Below are positions 4,860 to 18,936 of a DNA stretch of 20,875 nt, one piece after another (within the stretch, counting starts at the first letter, position 1; each line of letters begins with the position of its first letter). Both the position numbers and the translations under genes were made by a program. Origin of the DNA: a virus; IMG/VR virus record IMGVR_UViG_3300046499_000296, positions 1 to 20,875 of that record. One strand, written 5' to 3'. The notes beneath the pieces were generated by a model. The model saw only the letters and a program-made list of their open reading frames with translations, did no database searches and had not been told where the DNA came from.

Positions 4860-5485
4860 TTTGTCTCTCCGTATTTATAACGTTCTGTCTTATCGGTCCA
4901 CGGTTTCGCGGTCCTAATGTAGCCTAACACGTTTTCGGTATTAGTGTCAACTCCCGGCGATAGATATAGTTTATCCATTTTTGGATTTACTCGCGGATTC
5001 CGTGCAAGTGTCCAAAGATTGCTTGTAATTTGGTTTTCGGTTTCGTTTACTGTGTATATTCTTGCTTCTGGCTGATACCTAGCTTTAAACGTGTCCAAAT
5101 CTTGTATCTTTGGTCTGCCTACTGGTCTATCACTTGCTGGTTTGGTTTGTTTCTGTTCTGTTTTAATATATCTTAGATCATATTCTGACTTTTGCCGTTC
5201 CGGTTCTGCGTTTTCATCATCTTTGTACCATAGTTCTCCAGTAGACTCATTTAAACAAATTAACATCATTTCTATATCTCGTTCTAATTTTTCTTTCCTT
5301 TTTGGCGATTTTGTATCTATCGCCATTTGATTTATGTCCAAAGGAGTTGTAGCATGGATTAGTTTTAGCTTATATAAAATCTGGAAGTGCTTTTGGATTG
5401 GTGGATAATGTTCCACTTCATCTTTCACGGTCCTGTAATAGAATCGTGCTATTTTATCTAATTGTTTGTACTGAATCGGAATCAT
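4856..5485 (-). CDS. Hypothetical protein, 209 aa, with AT-hook-like motif; first gene of the long minus operon
   Basis: The protein is soluble, charged and without membrane segments. Around residues 119-124 it has RPVGRPK, close to the P-R-G-R-P core of an AT-hook, which binds the minor groove of AT-rich DNA. It is not exact, since V replaces R before GRP. The N-terminal part (IPIQYKQLDKIARFYYRTV) could be a helical domain. The gene is the first after the promoter at 5513-5541, with AGGAG before ATG 5485, so it is probably among the earliest products of this block. A role in DNA binding or replication is possible but not demonstrated. Confidence 0.7.
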   Translation of the reverse strand: MIPIQYKQLDKIARFYYRTVKDEVEHYPPIQKHFQILYKLKLIHATTPLDINQMAIDTKSPKRKEKLERDIEMMLICLNESTGELWYKDDENAEPERQKSEYDLRYIKTEQKQTKPASDRPVGRPKIQDLDTFKARYQPEARIYTVNETENQITSNLWTLARNPRVNPKMDKLYLSPGVDTNTENVLGYIRTAKPWTDKTERYKYGETK

Positions 5486-5805: not shown

Positions 5806-5822
5806 GGCGCTGGCGCGTAAAT
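5806..5822 (+). repeat. Fifth copy of the 17-bp repeat
   Basis: GGCGCTGGCGCGTAAAT matches the B-type copies at 6538-6554 and 6556-6572 except in the last few bases. It is separated from the cluster of four by two genes. Confidence 0.6.
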
Positions 5823-5862
5823 ACAAAAATACAACCCCATTAGGGGTAAAACGATCTAAAAC

Positions 5863-5918: not shown

Positions 5919-6116
5919 TTATGGTACGTGTTTCTCCAGTCTAATTGCCATGCGTTCTAGTTCTCGACTGGCGAATACCCAAAAATGTCCTGCGGTTCTG
6001 GTCTGCCATGCCGCGCTTAGTTCTAAACTCGCTTCCATGCATTTCTCACTTTGTTTACGTAAAGCCTTAATAAATGCTTCTGGACTGTCCGCATCTTCAA
6101 TAGATTTGTCTACCAT
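5919..6116 (-). CDS. Hypothetical helical protein, 65 aa
   Basis: The ATG at 6116 has AGGAG a few bases upstream and follows the previous gene after 9 bases. The chain is mostly helical by eye (PEAFIKALRKQSEKCMEAS, ELERMAIRLEKHV), with one cysteine. It is the second and last gene of a two-gene unit with its own promoter and terminator. No family is recognised. Compact helical proteins of this size in early phage regions are often host-protein inhibitors, but that is inference. Confidence 0.7.
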   Translation of the reverse strand: MVDKSIEDADSPEAFIKALRKQSEKCMEASLELSAAWQTRTAGHFWVFASRELERMAIRLEKHVP

Positions 6117-6125
6117 TACACGCTC

Positions 6126-6419
6126 CTAAGAATAAATACGCGCCATTATTACGCGATCCATATCAAACTTATCCGGCCATTTAAGCAGGATACCGCTAAA
6201 ATAAGAATCGGCTTCATAGCCGTCCCATCCTTCCATCTCATTACCTTTGGGACATGCCATAAAATCATTAATGTAGTACACCCATCCTTTATATCTTACA
6301 AAGTCTGCGCTCTGTTGTTTTTCTTGGTCCATCCAATCAAATTCCTTTTTTTCTTTATCTGTCAAATCTTCCCAATTGATTAATAGTCTTACGTGATAGT
6401 TACATTTAATAGTAGCCAT
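6126..6419 (-). CDS. Hypothetical protein, 97 aa
   Basis: The start is placed at ATG 6419 because AGGAG stands 8 bases upstream and the promoter -10 box lies just before it. An 18-residue extension would reach back through the promoter. The chain is acidic and rich in aromatic residues (GWVYYINDF, GWDGYEADSYF). The acidic, aromatic character recalls DNA-mimic or host-inhibitor proteins, but no family was recognised. It is the first gene of its own transcription unit. Confidence 0.7.
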   Translation of the reverse strand: MATIKCNYHVRLLINWEDLTDKEKKEFDWMDQEKQQSADFVRYKGWVYYINDFMACPKGNEMEGWDGYEADSYFSGILLKWPDKFDMDRVIMARIYS

Positions 6420-6443
6420 TACATATCTCCTGTAGCACCATAG

Positions 6444-6473
6444 AGCATAGCACACGGAACCCGGTGCTGTCAA
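6444..6473 (-). promoter_or_regulatory. Sigma70-type promoter for the two-gene unit
   Basis: On the minus strand, a perfect TTGACA (6473-6468) is followed after 18 bases by TATGCT (6449-6444), with TG one base before the -10 box. The first gene starts 25 bases downstream. Confidence 0.8.
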
Positions 6474-6514
6474 TAGGGTTGTTTAGTAGGTTAAAGCGAT
6501 TCTAAATCTAATAT

Positions 6515-6602
6515 GCCGCTGACGAGTAACTAACGTTGACGCTGGCGCGTAGCTAGGCGCTGGCGCGTAGCTAAAACAAACACTCGGCGCTGACGAGTAA
6601 CT
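6515..6602 (+). repeat. Cluster of four 17-bp repeats (iteron-like)
   Basis: Four copies of GNCGCTGRCGMGTARCT lie at 6515-6531, 6538-6554, 6556-6572 and 6586-6602, all in the same orientation. Copies 1 and 4 share GCTGACGAGTAACT (type A); copies 2 and 3 share CGCTGGCGCGTAGCT (type B), giving the order A-B-B-A. The gaps are 6, 1 and 13 bases. No coding frame explains them. The cluster could bind a replication initiator or regulator. Confidence 0.75.
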
Positions 6603-6604
6603 GT

Positions 6605-6626
6605 AGACCTATAATATTATAGGTCT
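6605..6626. repeat. Perfect 22-bp palindrome with TATAAT on both strands
   Basis: AGACCTATAAT is followed without any gap by its exact reverse complement, ATTATAGGTCT. Each half contains the -10 consensus TATAAT. It begins three bases after the last 17-bp repeat. No good -35 box is seen at 17 bases on either strand, so it is more likely an operator or melting site than two standard promoters. Confidence 0.75.
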
Positions 6627-6650
6627 AATCCCATAATAAAACTAAATAGC

Positions 6651-6694
6651 AAATAAAACAAAAATAGGGGACCGGCCTTGTTGGCCCGGTCCCC
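6651..6694 (-). terminator. Strong Rho-independent terminator after 7121-6703
   Basis: GGGGACCGG (6667-6675) pairs with CCGGTCCCC (6686-6694) over a 10-base loop in which two further G-C pairs are possible. On the minus strand the stem is followed by TATTTTTGTTTTATTTG. It lies 8 bases beyond the stop at 6703. Confidence 0.9.
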
Positions 6695-6702
6695 CTAGTA
6701 TA

Positions 6703-6876
6703 TCACCAACAGCGTGCGCGGTCTTCATTGTCTTGAGCGTCCCGGTGTGCGCGGTTTAATTCCTTTTCCTGTTGGTCGATAAATTTAATTACCTCTTCCA
6801 ACTCTTCTGGATTATCCACAAATCCGATTCCGCTTAATGCGGTGTTAATTGCTTTCTTTGCTTGTTCTGCATTCAT
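6703..6876 (-). CDS. Small charged helical protein, 57 aa
   Basis: The frame runs from ATG 6876, which overlaps the stop of the gene before it (ATGA), to TGA 6703, with GGAGG upstream. The product begins MNAEQAKKAINTALSGIGFV, is rich in acidic and basic residues (PEELEEVIKFIDQQEKELN) and should be almost fully helical. It ends in CW. The function is unknown. A terminator follows directly, so this is the last gene of its unit. Confidence 0.75.
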   Translation of the reverse strand: MNAEQAKKAINTALSGIGFVDNPEELEEVIKFIDQQEKELNRAHRDAQDNEDRARCW

Positions 6877-7121
6877 TTTAAGTTATCCTCCAAATACTCT
6901 CTCAAGTCCAGCAAGTCTTCTTCAGTCTCGCTGCCGCTCGGCGCGTCTGCAATAGCCCAAGTGACTATAGCAATCGCACGTTCTTTATTCATTGGACCTT
7001 TCGGTTCTTCCGGTGGCAGTTCTGGTGCCGGATCGTCTTCCCGCATTCCTAGCCCATGCCATGCGCCACTAATTGTGGCTAGCTTTCTTCCGGTTATGCT
7101 GTTGAATATATCATGTGCCAT
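6873..7121 (-). CDS. Small protein with DUF932-like WHGLG motif, 82 aa
   Basis: The start is placed at ATG 7121, preceded by GGAG; a longer frame would read back through the terminator hairpin. The first 25 residues, MAHDIFNSITGRKL and then WHGLG at 21-25, resemble the conserved N terminus of DUF932 proteins, which usually begin MAH and have a WHGLG block soon after. The rest is unrelated: a proline-rich acidic link (PAPELPPEEPKGP), then helices with an acidic end. It may be a short relative or partner of the full DUF932 protein coded directly upstream. The terminator between the two would lower its expression unless another promoter exists. Confidence 0.7.
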   Translation of the reverse strand: MAHDIFNSITGRKLATISGAWHGLGMREDDPAPELPPEEPKGPMNKERAIAIVTWAIADAPSGSETEEDLLDLREYLEDNLK

Positions 7122-7145
7122 TTTGTTTAATCTCCAATTAGGTAT

Positions 7146-7175
7146 AAGAAAAAGGGGGGCTGTTGCCAGCCCCCC
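7146..7175 (-). terminator. Rho-independent terminator after the DUF932 gene
   Basis: GGGGGGCTG (7154-7162) and CAGCCCCCC (7167-7175) form a 9-pair stem with a 4-base loop, followed on the minus strand by TTTTTCTTATACC. It sits 9 bases beyond the stop of the DUF932 gene and upstream of two more genes in the same direction, so partial read-through may set their level. Confidence 0.9.
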
Positions 7176-7183
7176 CGGTTTAG

Positions 7184-8224
7184 TTACGCTGCCAGTGCCA
7201 CCGCAGCATCCCACATGCGCTGTTTCACGTCGGCACCTTTGCCCCACTGTGAGGAGATAAACTTAGCCTCTTCAGTGCGACCGGTTCCCGCATGGTCGAT
7301 ATCGTAAGTCACGGCATTAACCGCGCCCCACAATGTCCCGCGTGCGCTTGCCAGATCGGAACCCGGTGCATTCTTCAGTGCTGCGCCAAGCCGCTGTAAC
7401 ACCTGCACAGTCCGGCTTTCCCTTTCCTTATTTTTCTTTTCATTTTCCTTTGCGAAGTGTTCAGCGATTTTTTCATCTGAATCTAAACCGTAGTAAGCGT
7501 TTAGCAACATCTTGATTACCTGTTCTTCGCTGACCTTTTGCTTCGCCATTCGCTTTGCATTTTCGCTAAACTGATTCCATGCATCGCTTACCAGTTCAAG
7601 CCTAATGCAAATCTTGTCCCAGTCTACAACAGTAGAGTGCCGGTTCTTGACACTGAGCACATTGCTATGCCGTGCCGATTGCAGCGTGTTATTGCAGACC
7701 GGTCGCAATTCACCGGTGAATCCTTCGGTACTCATGCTGCCATCGCAGGACGTTGCGACCGTAACAAACTGGTGCATTTTGTCCTTACCCGGCAATTCCA
7801 ACACGCAACCGGTGTTAGCCGTACACCAGTATCGACCGCCGTTAAACAACACGCCAGCGGTTTCAATCTGGTAACCGTACTTACTGCACAGTTGCTTGAA
7901 GAACTGGAAAATCGTTGTAGGCTGAACCGGCTTATATCGTTCAGTTACGGTATTCATAACTGCGCCGGTATCGCTGCGATACAGCACAAAGCGGTTTTCT
8001 GCGGTAGTCGAAACCTTGAGCGGCTTACCATCAAGCCCCACAATCTCCCGCTGAAACTCTACCGGCGCAATATTGACATTGAAGTCTGCGCCCGCTTTCA
8101 CCTGAATCTGTTCCGGCGTATCAGTCGGCAGGATCGCATTACCAAGCTTGTGCCACATGGACTCTGCGCCACCGATTGCCGCAACTGCTGCGAAACCCTT
8201 CGAAAAATCAAGTTCGTGTGCCAT
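7184..8224 (-). CDS. DUF932 family phage/plasmid-like protein, 346 aa
   Basis: The protein begins MAHELDFSKG and has WHKLG at 24-28, the position where DUF932 proteins carry WHGLG. The following region (VEFQREIVGLDGKPLKVS, then an aromatic-rich block with RYKPVQPTTIFQFF) fits the family layout in which beta strands lead into a long C-terminal helical part. The length, about 350 residues, is normal for the family. DUF932 proteins are common in phages and plasmids, but their biochemical role is not established. GGAG precedes ATG 8224. The gene is more G+C-rich than its neighbours, suggesting a separate origin. A short leader frame overlaps its start. Confidence 0.85.
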   Translation of the reverse strand: MAHELDFSKGFAAVAAIGGAESMWHKLGNAILPTDTPEQIQVKAGADFNVNIAPVEFQREIVGLDGKPLKVSTTAENRFVLYRSDTGAVMNTVTERYKPVQPTTIFQFFKQLCSKYGYQIETAGVLFNGGRYWCTANTGCVLELPGKDKMHQFVTVATSCDGSMSTEGFTGELRPVCNNTLQSARHSNVLSVKNRHSTVVDWDKICIRLELVSDAWNQFSENAKRMAKQKVSEEQVIKMLLNAYYGLDSDEKIAEHFAKENEKKNKERESRTVQVLQRLGAALKNAPGSDLASARGTLWGAVNAVTYDIDHAGTGRTEEAKFISSQWGKGADVKQRMWDAAVALAA

Positions 8225-8258
8225 TTGAAAGTCTCCGATAGTTTAGACAATGCTTCAC
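8208..8258 (-). CDS. Possible 16-residue leader peptide overlapping the DUF932 start
   Basis: AAGGAGGG stands six bases before GTG 8258, a better binding site than that of the DUF932 gene itself. The frame codes for 16 residues starting VKHCLNYRRL and ends 14 codon-widths after reading through the DUF932 start in another frame. It may couple or control translation of the main gene. A chance frame is equally possible. Confidence 0.25.
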   Translation of the reverse strand: MKHCLNYRRLSNGTRT

Positions 8259-8412
8259 CCTTTACCCTCCTTGTACATTGAGTGGGCTTACCGGTGAAGC
8301 GGGAGTAGGGCTAGCCTTTCGCTTTTGCCCTACGGTTTCGAGTTTACTCCTTATTCAATCTAAATGCAACACCCGGCACAATGTCCGGTAATCGTCCAGG
8401 CATCACGCAACA

Positions 8413-8488
8413 TTGTATACAAGTGCAGTAGTTCAGGATGCGGTGTTGTGCATATGTATACAAACCGGTATTGTGACATTGTATACTA
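8413..8488. repeat. Three TTGTATACAA-type palindromic sites
   Basis: A perfect TTGTATACAA palindrome lies at 8413-8422, with near copies ATGTATACAA at 8454-8463 and TTGTATACTA at 8479-8488. The centres are 41 and 25 bases apart. Two further near copies lie at 5567-5592. Repeated palindromes in a divergent control region suggest operators for a dimeric regulator. Confidence 0.55.
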
Positions 8489-8511
8489 GACCCCTGACGC
8501 GGACCAAGGAC

Positions 8512-8544
8512 GACCCTATTTTTTTAGGGTCCCATAGGGACCCT
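8512..8544. repeat. Two mutually exclusive hairpins (attenuator-like)
   Basis: GACCCTA (8512-8518) can pair with TAGGGTC (8525-8531) across six T. The same central arm, AGGGTCCC (8526-8533), can instead pair with GGGACCCT (8537-8544) across ATA. Only one stem can form at a time. No T-run follows the second stem on either strand, so this is not a plain terminator. Confidence 0.55.
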
Positions 8545-8680
8545 CTATAACTCGCACAATTGGTTTAAGTCGCGCCAAAAAATAATAATTTAAAATCTCG
8601 GTAAGCTAAACCCGGTAGTCCTCATTATCTCCATATGCTAAAAAATAAATTTTTTTCGTTATCCCCGCGCTCGAAACCCC

Positions 8681-8709
8681 TTGACAGCTCGGCAGAACTG
8701 TGATACGTA
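8681..8709 (+). promoter_or_regulatory. Candidate promoter for the rightward gene block
   Basis: A perfect TTGACA at 8681-8686 is followed after 17 bases by TACGTA (8704-8709), with TG one base before it. The -10 box is poor, but its distance to the -35 box and the first gene at 8741 is right. Such a weak -10 may need an activator, which would give timed expression of the packaging genes. Confidence 0.5.
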
Positions 8710-8740
8710 GGCCGGTTGACCCACCCCAAGGAGAATCCCA

Positions 8741-9148
8741 ATGAGCTTTATTAAACCAACTGTTGGAAGAGTAGTATGGTATATACCAAAGAACGTAGAC
8801 AATTTAGAACAGCATAATAACGATCCCTTAAAGGCAGATATAATCGCAGTTCATAGTCCAGAAGAAGTAAGTCTTTTCGTAATAAGTGCTTCTGGTCAAA
8901 CAAGGTATATTTCTAAAGCGCCTCTTTGGCAGTTAGAGTCTGGTAAACCTAAACCAGAGAAAGGTGGTTATGCCATGTGGATGCCTTATCAATTAGGACA
9001 GGCGGCAAAAACAGAAGAAGTTTTAGGTAGAGTGAGAAGTTCAATAGGACCGGAAGAGTTAATAAAAGGACATGCACCTAAAGAAGCGGTAACTGATCCT
9101 CCTTTAGCTGGACAAGACACACAGCCACCGCCAGCACTTGGGAATTAA
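8741..9148 (+). CDS. Conserved hypothetical phage protein, 135 aa
   Basis: The protein opens with KPTVGRVVWY, followed by ADIIAVHSPEEVSLFVISASG and, near residue 80, GYAMWMPYQLGQAAKTE. I recognise this order (GR-VWY, an IIA-VHS strand, and a late WMPYQ-GQA block) as typical of a small protein found in many tailed phages of proteobacteria, often near the packaging genes. Its role is not known. The fold is probably a small beta barrel. AAGGAG lies 7 bases before ATG 8741, and it is the first gene after the promoter. The C-terminal tail is proline-rich and probably flexible. Confidence 0.8.
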   Translation: MSFIKPTVGRVVWYIPKNVDNLEQHNNDPLKADIIAVHSPEEVSLFVISASGQTRYISKAPLWQLESGKPKPEKGGYAMWMPYQLGQAAKTEEVLGRVRSSIGPEELIKGHAPKEAVTDPPLAGQDTQPPPALGN

Positions 9149-17399: not shown

Positions 17400-17659
17400 C
17401 TCTTAGAGATGCATCATTATTAGTAGGTGGAGCGGGAGAATTTTTACCATCTGCTACTCAAACGCATATTGCAGGTAATCCAGGGTATGTAATTTCTTTA
17501 CCGGGTACTGCTACTGCTGTAGTCTATAAATACAAAAACCGTGGCTGGTATGTAGCAGGAGGAGTAGAAGAGTCTTGGGTTACAGTAGGTGCGCCTAGTA
17601 CAGTCCCACCTAGTGGACACACATTAATAGGCATTGATTATGTGGTGTTACAACCGTAA
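17396..17659 (+). CDS. Small virion-associated protein, 87 aa
   Basis: The start is GTG 17396, overlapping the previous stop as GTGA, and the stop overlaps the next start as TAATG. The chain has glycine-rich turns and beta strands ([20 protein letters not shown], then [13 protein letters not shown]). Full coupling on both sides points to a product needed in proportion to the two fibre-type proteins around it, perhaps an adaptor or cap. No family is recognised. Confidence 0.65.
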
Positions 17660-18936
17660 TGGGTAGTAGTTCTGCGCTCCCTGCTGCTGGTGTAGGTGCG
17701 ACCGGAGCAACGGGCGCAACGGGAGCTACCGGCGCAGGACCAACGGGTCCAACAGGAGCTACAGGCATAGGCTTACCGGGTCCAACAGGAGCTACAGGCG
17801 CAACGGGAATAGGTGCTACCGGGCCTACAGGCGCTACCGGAATAGGCGTACAAGGTCCAACAGGAGCTACAGGAGCTACAGGAATAGGTTTACAGGGGGC
17901 AACAGGTGCTACAGGTACAACTGGTTCTATTGGGCCTACTGGGCCTACCGGGGCTACTGGTGCTGGACCTACTGGTGCTACAGGTACTACTGGTCCTACA
18001 GGTGCCACCGGTGCTACTGGCGCTACTGGTGTTGCGAGTCTCGCTGCTGTAGGGGCTGCACCGAATGCGAATGCTGCAACACTTGTTAGTGGTGTATTTA
18101 CTTTACAACCGGCAAATAATCTTTTTCCCGGTGTTTTAACTGCTGTAGCTCAAGCTATTGGAGGTGATAAAACTTTTTATGGTAATGTAACTATTGGTGT
18201 ACCAAGTACCTTAAGTTTTGGTGCAGCAACCCGCCAGATGGTGAATTTGTATGCGACTTCTTATGGTATAGGTGTTCAAGGTGGTGTGTATTATAGTCGT
18301 AGTGGAGCGAATTTTGCATGGTATAGTGGTGGTGTACATAGCGATAGTGCATATGATCCGGGGGTTGGTGGTACATTAGTAATGAGGGTAGATACAGCGG
18401 GAAACCTTATTATCCCCGGTAATTTAACAGCAGCAAATTTTTCAGGTACAGGTGGTGGAATTAGTAGTGTTGCTAATATTGGTGCTACTCCAAACGCTGG
18501 TGGTGCATCAATAGCAGGAACAGTTCTTACTTTACAACCAGCAAGTGCAACTTTTGGTGGTGTAATTATTTCCGGTAATCAAGTATTGCCTTCTGGACGG
18601 AAAACGTTTACTGATGTTTTACTTTCTAATTTACTTTATCAATTCTATGATAATGGTATAACTACAACAACAAGTAATATTGCTTGGGGTAATGGTAGTA
18701 TTCAAGCTGTTGCTCCAAATAATAGTGCTGCGCTTACTTTTACGTTTAGTCCTCCGCTTTATCCTGCTATACTTACTCTTAATCTTTATGCAGGTGTTGC
18801 GGGTCTTCCAACGTTTCCGGCAAGTGTTCATGGACAACCGGGAGTTACTTTAATTGCAGGAAAGAATTCGATATTTAGATTTTTTTGGGATGGCAATGCT
18901 ATTTTTTATTATATAGGCGGATGTAATAACCAATGA
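17659..18936 (+). CDS. Collagen-like tail fibre protein, 425 aa
   Basis: Residues 12-125 or so are almost pure Gly-x-y triplets, mostly GAT, GPT and GIG ([20 protein letters not shown] is typical), as found in phage and bacterial collagen-like fibres that form triple helices. The C-terminal 300 residues hold two related units: one near 130 ([18 protein letters not shown], then FTLQPA and GDKTF) and one near 275 ([17 protein letters not shown], then LTLQPA and GRKTF). These look like a tandem duplication of a fibre domain. The last part is beta-rich and may be a trimerising knob. It is most likely a trimeric fibre. Confidence 0.85.

Follow-up and report, generated by a model that had tools for sequence, protein, structure and literature searches.

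A phage mini-protein with the N-terminal block of DUF932, encoded next to a full-length DUF932 gene

Layout of the locus

The stretch of DNA analysed here (the window) is an IMG/VR virus record of 20,875 bases. The best matches of its terminase, at 34-40% identity, are mostly to Proteobacteria phages (among the 15 of 26 matches listed). The genes and signals around the mini-protein gene, P0001, are the following.

6703..6876, minus strand: P0003, a 57-aa ORF whose start overlaps the P0001 stop; retained in the related records L003 and L004
6873..7121, minus strand: P0001, gene of the 82-aa mini-protein; its TGA stop overlaps the next start (ATGA)
6873..6992, minus strand: tail of P0001 from the internal Met44, 39 codons plus stop; a predicted two-helix hairpin, not DUF932
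6874..6879, minus strand: AAAATG, right-hand copy of the direct repeat (6 nt) that flanks the indel
6891-6887, minus strand: GGAGG, Shine-Dalgarno of P0003, within P0001 and ten bases 5' of the P0003 ATG
5' of the internal ATG (Met44) of P0001, minus strand: AAAGGTCC
7023..7121, minus strand: DUF932/TIGR03299 N-terminal segment of P0001, secure for residues 1-25 and reaching residue 33 at most
7119..7124, minus strand: AAAATG, left-hand copy of the direct repeat (6 nt) that flanks the indel
7135-7132, minus strand: GGAG, Shine-Dalgarno of P0001, ten bases 5' of its ATG
7153..7176, minus strand: intrinsic terminator between P0002 and P0001, with a 10-pair GC-rich stem followed by TTTTCTTATA
7184..8224, minus strand: P0002, a 346-aa full-length DUF932/TIGR03299 protein (PF06067, TIGR03299, phrog_1221)

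The terminator is a strong one and P0001 stands directly behind it. When positions 6300-8900 were searched for sigma-70-like sites, one was found (4.0 were expected in shuffles). Because this sole site lies downstream, at 6473-6444, P0001 is probably expressed by read-through of the terminator.

The neighbour P0002 matched PF06067 with an E-value of 5.3e-41, TIGR03299 with 197.4 bits (cut-off 110.7) and phrog_1221. The match to the Pfam DUF932 model begins at residue 91, so that the N-terminal block falls outside it. Six residues were invariant in 40 DUF932 proteins, namely M1, H25, R174, C177, N179 and H196 (P0002 numbering); judged from this conservation, they could form an active site. P0002 had no solved relative by sequence, and Foldseek returned no match at E<=0.001 for the full DUF932 fold. 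A second structure search gave a best Z of 5.4, to actin-capping protein chains, which is under the tool's own meaningful level. Among literature titles on DUF932, TIGR03299 and DUF945 with phage, none concerned such a mini-protein.

Two further genes of the window drew our attention. Positions 1116-1895 encode a 259-aa protein that combines a HEITH motif with a part resembling a zinc ribbon; its SprT-like match is weak (E 0.19) and stays under the cut-off. The 425-aa protein encoded at positions 17659-18936 contains a region of GATGATG repeats that is collagen-like.

The DUF932 block in P0001 and its end

The translation of P0001 starts with MAHDIFNSITGRKLATISGAWHGLG and has MAH at residues 1-3 and WHGLG at residues 21-25. 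In P0002, MAH is likewise found at residues 1-3, and WHKLG at residues 24-28. The first-pass annotation had put both motifs at the same places in the two proteins; this is correct for MAH, but the second block is shifted by three residues.

To avoid circularity, the main N-terminal profile was derived from viral DUF932 loci picked via the C-terminal part of the protein (the best 80 of 202). It comprised 64 distinct N-termini from the 78 of 80 loci that were parsed, L106 and L108 being left out as they begin past the N-terminus. P0001 scored 15.9 bits with this profile, with residues 1-26 aligned, against a maximum of 9.6 in 20,000 shuffles and 12.6 bits for the N-terminus of P0002. In a search of 10,604 open frames from the loci collected, its E-value was 0.0076, and it was the sole closed short frame below 0.01 (listed twice, once as the window and once as L001). 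The other rows with a low E-value were second matches inside full-length frames, or frames cut at the end of a locus.

A second profile was built from 52 N-termini of L126-L199, mostly from Bacteroidota plus one from Planctomycetota; an N-terminus was obtained from 227 of the 240 loci in this comparison, and 13 were dropped. It is partly circular, its loci having been picked by N-terminal patterns and being biased for AWHGLG, and it gave 19.0 bits for P0001, 8.8 for P0002 and 9.6 for the best shuffle. The gain of P0001 with this profile seems to come from the FN..TG piece, which was absent from the selection criteria. With a profile from eight divergent named-phage proteins, P0001 ranked 4 of 10,000, these sequences being too divergent to decide. 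A profile based on the MAH...GAWHG pattern (22.2 bits for P0001) was set aside as circular in favour of the C-terminally selected set.

The shuffle controls with both profiles ruled out a chance resemblance to DUF932. The first-pass annotation had proposed that the mini-protein carries the N-terminal motif of DUF932, and this proved to be a true block, scoring above all 20,000 shuffles with the main profile and recovered with the second. Its remark that the small protein is closer to the family consensus than the neighbour was also confirmed by both pairs of scores. No Pfam, NCBIfam or PHROGs model matched P0001 at E<=10, and the protein stays below the curated cut-off of TIGR03299/PF06067; the curated models miss it because the match spans only about 25 residues.

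The best tblastn match of P0001 in viral contigs was the full DUF932 protein of L002 (IMGVR_UViG_3300010392_000664), with 53% identity over residues 1-33, and BLASTP gave 53% over 34 columns (E 1e-6). The L002 protein begins like P0001, with MAHEI..SGAWHGLGM, but is full length (341 aa) and is not accompanied by a mini-protein. M1 and the histidine of WHGLG, both invariant in the 40 full-length proteins, are retained in P0001, as are the near-invariant H3, W and G.

The similarity ends at about GLG, and at residue 33 at the latest. A profile of the DUF932 region just past GLG gave a score of -0.3 for the remainder of P0001, which 1,119 shuffles surpassed (3,989 sequences reported of 5,001), ruling out that the tail is a continuation of DUF932. 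P0001 is thus like TIGR03299, PF06067 DUF932 and phrog_1221 in its first ~25 residues (MAH, linker, AWHGLG), but it measures 82 aa against ~320-350 and lacks the central and C-terminal core with the invariant R174, C177, N179 and H196.

The predicted model of P0001 had a mean pLDDT of 67, with blocks at 48-56 for residues 1-40 and at 74-88 for residues 41-80. It was obtained with an alignment of 10 rows, the tails of which are unrelated to that of P0001. Helices at residues 46-59 and 65-80 form the predicted two-helix hairpin. The N-terminal block was of low confidence in the model of P0002 as well (48-58 for residues 1-30). Similar hairpins were found as separate small phage proteins of 39-58 aa (rmsd 0.5-0.8 over 33-34 columns, E 1.6-2.7); no comparison of this kind reached E <0.001, the hairpin being generic among small phage proteins. 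Kinship of the tail with P0003, which also begins MN.E.A, was not accepted (local p 0.18-0.19, global p 0.014, no alignment by BLASTP), and kinship with the 56-aa ORF of L005 described below was rejected (p 0.75).

Occurrence of N-terminus-only forms and the indel in related phages

A scan with a DUF932 N-terminal profile yielded 80 bacterial and 80 viral loci (the best 80 of 449 and the best 80 of 252). The frame continued for at least 250 residues in 150 of these 160 loci, six ran off the contig, two ended at 189 and 217 residues, and two were shorter than 150. The last two, L125 (77 aa, Planctomycetales MAG) and L181 (58 aa, Planctomycetota MAG), are remnant-like. They share the DUF932 N-terminal start with P0001 but extend further into the family (to profile positions 64 and 48) and have almost no new tail. 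Unlike P0001, they lie on bacterial contigs with no adjoining full DUF932 gene in the stretch examined. No DUF932 was found further downstream of L125, L181 and L162, and at L180 the C-terminal part is in another frame. The occurrence of N-terminus-only ORFs without a downstream DUF932 in bacterial MAGs indicates that decay to such a form happens.

No N-terminus-only ORF was present in the 80 viral loci (best 80 of 252), nor, apart from the window, in the 10,604 frames searched with the main profile. DUF932 genes of named phages were full length in the 8 regions inspected, of 306 records matched. Viral contigs recur across the searches, so that these counts refer to loci and not to independent phages. 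P0001 itself had no relative in GTDB contigs and no match in phages or plasmids, and is known as a single copy.

Four related records were found via the terminase, one of which (L117) starts so near the terminase that it does not reach to the DUF932 side. In L003 and L004, whose DUF932 protein is 99% identical, the terminator is followed directly by the 57-aa ORF and P0001 is missing. If 245 nt are removed from the window, from start codon to start codon, 272 of 277 bases are identical to both records. This 245-nt indel is flanked by the two copies of AAAATG, each of which spans a start codon. L003 and L004 are one base apart in 6.3 kb, and the absence of P0001 from them therefore counts as one observation. 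In L005 (DUF932 73% identical), the place of P0001 is taken by a different ORF of 56 aa, which also starts with MAH and is preceded by a duplicate of the DUF932 leader. A search of the whole records of L003, L004 and L005 recovered P0001 in none of the three. The idea that the pair of mini-protein and full-length gene might recur in other phages was not borne out, either in these records or at the viral loci examined.

The gain or loss of P0001 as a whole at the AAAATG repeat suggests that the phage does without it. A deletion in the sister phage is slightly favoured over an insertion in the window, because the good Shine-Dalgarno of the 57-aa ORF sits inside P0001.

In L005, the duplication before the 56-aa ORF comprises the DUF932 leader and the first three codons (~4979-5009 and ~6089-6121; score 49, with 2,000 shuffles peaking at 35). 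A further one-gene presence/absence was seen nearby: an extra small ORF (MSHSYEINCNCPRC...) precedes a 97-aa gene in L003 and L005 and is missing in the window at ~6420-6700.

Origin and possible role of P0001

The reading that we favour, and hold to be rather probable, is that P0001 is a dispensable, chimeric accessory ORF in which the front of a DUF932 gene is combined with a small helical protein. A fragment of ~25-33 codons, from a DUF932 lineage other than that of P0002, would have been joined in frame to a two-helix phage protein of ~39 aa. The resulting gene would sit in a slot that follows the terminator of P0002, where its own Shine-Dalgarno would drive translation and P0003 would be coupled to it through the ATGA overlap. 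P0001 would enter or leave this slot as a whole, by way of the AAAATG copies that cover the two start codons. The DUF932 part of the protein is probably unfolded on its own and functionally inert, any activity residing most likely in the helical tail. Whereas the similarity with its end point, the exact indel, the terminator and the overlap are observed, we infer the chimeric origin, the inertness and indeed the production of the protein. Three observations fit this account less well. The retention of all invariant and near-invariant N-terminal residues argues against an old inert relic, which might have lost some of them. The codon usage of P0001 is ordinary for this phage (0.030, compared with -0.105 to 0.269 in other genes), which is unlike a decaying sequence. 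Finally, the position of the P0003 Shine-Dalgarno within P0001 suggests that the two genes are adapted to each other, which counts against a chimeric relic.

The first-pass annotation had suggested a regulator or competitor acting through the same binding surface. In such a reading the N-terminal segment of P0001 would still be at work, as a putative decoy or regulator that would fill the site taken by the same segment in DUF932, be it in the protein's own core or in a partner, while the helical hairpin would add dimerisation or another contact. All 40 full-length proteins have the histidine of WHGLG, which indicates that the segment matters to DUF932, and P0001 both retains this histidine and adjoins a DUF932 gene. 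Its ordinary codon usage is also compatible with such a role. Yet nothing ties the two proteins together in function: the N-terminus of P0001 is closer to other DUF932 lineages than to P0002, it is missing in the sister phage in spite of a DUF932 protein that is 99% identical, a terminator separates the two genes, and no such pair was present at any other viral locus examined. We regard a decoy or regulator as improbable. The more specific proposal of a selected DUF932 decoy, a putative micro-competitor whose conserved His/Trp block would take the place of that block in DUF932 or its partner and whose hairpin would modulate the effect, appears less likely still.

A partial duplication of P0002, in which the leader and the first codons would have been copied downstream and have since diverged, is about as doubtful as a decoy or regulator. 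Both genes start with AAATGGCACAYGA (12/13 bases alike), the alignment of the two protein N-termini had a p value of 0.0004, and the 56-aa ORF of L005 with its copied DUF932 leader indicates that such events occur in this group. However, the likeness of the first 75 bases of P0001 and P0002 was no greater than the protein dictates (synonymous-recoding p = 0.23), P0002 came 63rd when 79 DUF932 genes were ranked by their DNA score against P0001 and 111th among 151 in protein score against its N-terminus, and the leaders of the two genes agree in those 13 nt only (score 22, best shuffle 24). Judged by these comparisons, P0001 is not a recent copy of P0002, since there is no nucleotide trace of copying and the fit to other DUF932 lineages is better. 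The alternative raised by the first-pass annotation, a relic of a duplicated gene with a new tail, is thus sustained as far as the relic and the new tail are concerned (from about GLG on the family is no longer recognisable, what follows is unrelated to it, and the indel comprises exactly one gene), but not as to a duplication of P0002 itself.

The top of the DNA ranking was occupied by bacterial genes, with recoding p values of 0.002-0.034 that fail correction for the choice of the best of 79. No second full DUF932 gene that might have served as donor was seen in the five phage records, which may be fragments; TIGR03299 had one match in each of four of the five, and a profile of other-lineage N-termini matched P0001 alone.

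It is also quite unlikely that the gene consists of the tail alone, starting at Met44 (39 aa) behind an untranslated DUF932-like remnant. In favour of this reading, AAAGG lies just 5' of the internal ATG, the tail matches separate two-helix phage proteins in size, and the confident part of the model begins there. Against it, the first ATG has a GGAG in front of it, like many other genes of the phage, and the reading frame is open through both ATGs.

Mosaic phage accessory genes arise by illegitimate recombination. P0001, read as a chimera, resembles them in the gain or loss of a whole gene at start codons and in the in-frame joining of unrelated pieces, and differs from them in that one of its pieces is a recognisable DUF932 front. 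It would be a clear example of a small phage ORF that has taken its front from a widespread protein of unknown function and whose empty site is seen in a sister phage. As such it may help to account for the origin of orphan phage mini-genes; no new mechanism is revealed by it. A further point of interest is the near-invariant His/Trp block at the N-terminus of DUF932, missed by the Pfam model in P0002.

The non-coding DNA of this region contains dispersed repeats of 16-24 nt around CGCTGGCGCGTA / CGCTGACGAGTAAC. They were found at 5806-5829 and 6517-6609 of the window and at 6995-7084 of L005, and are common to the related phages.
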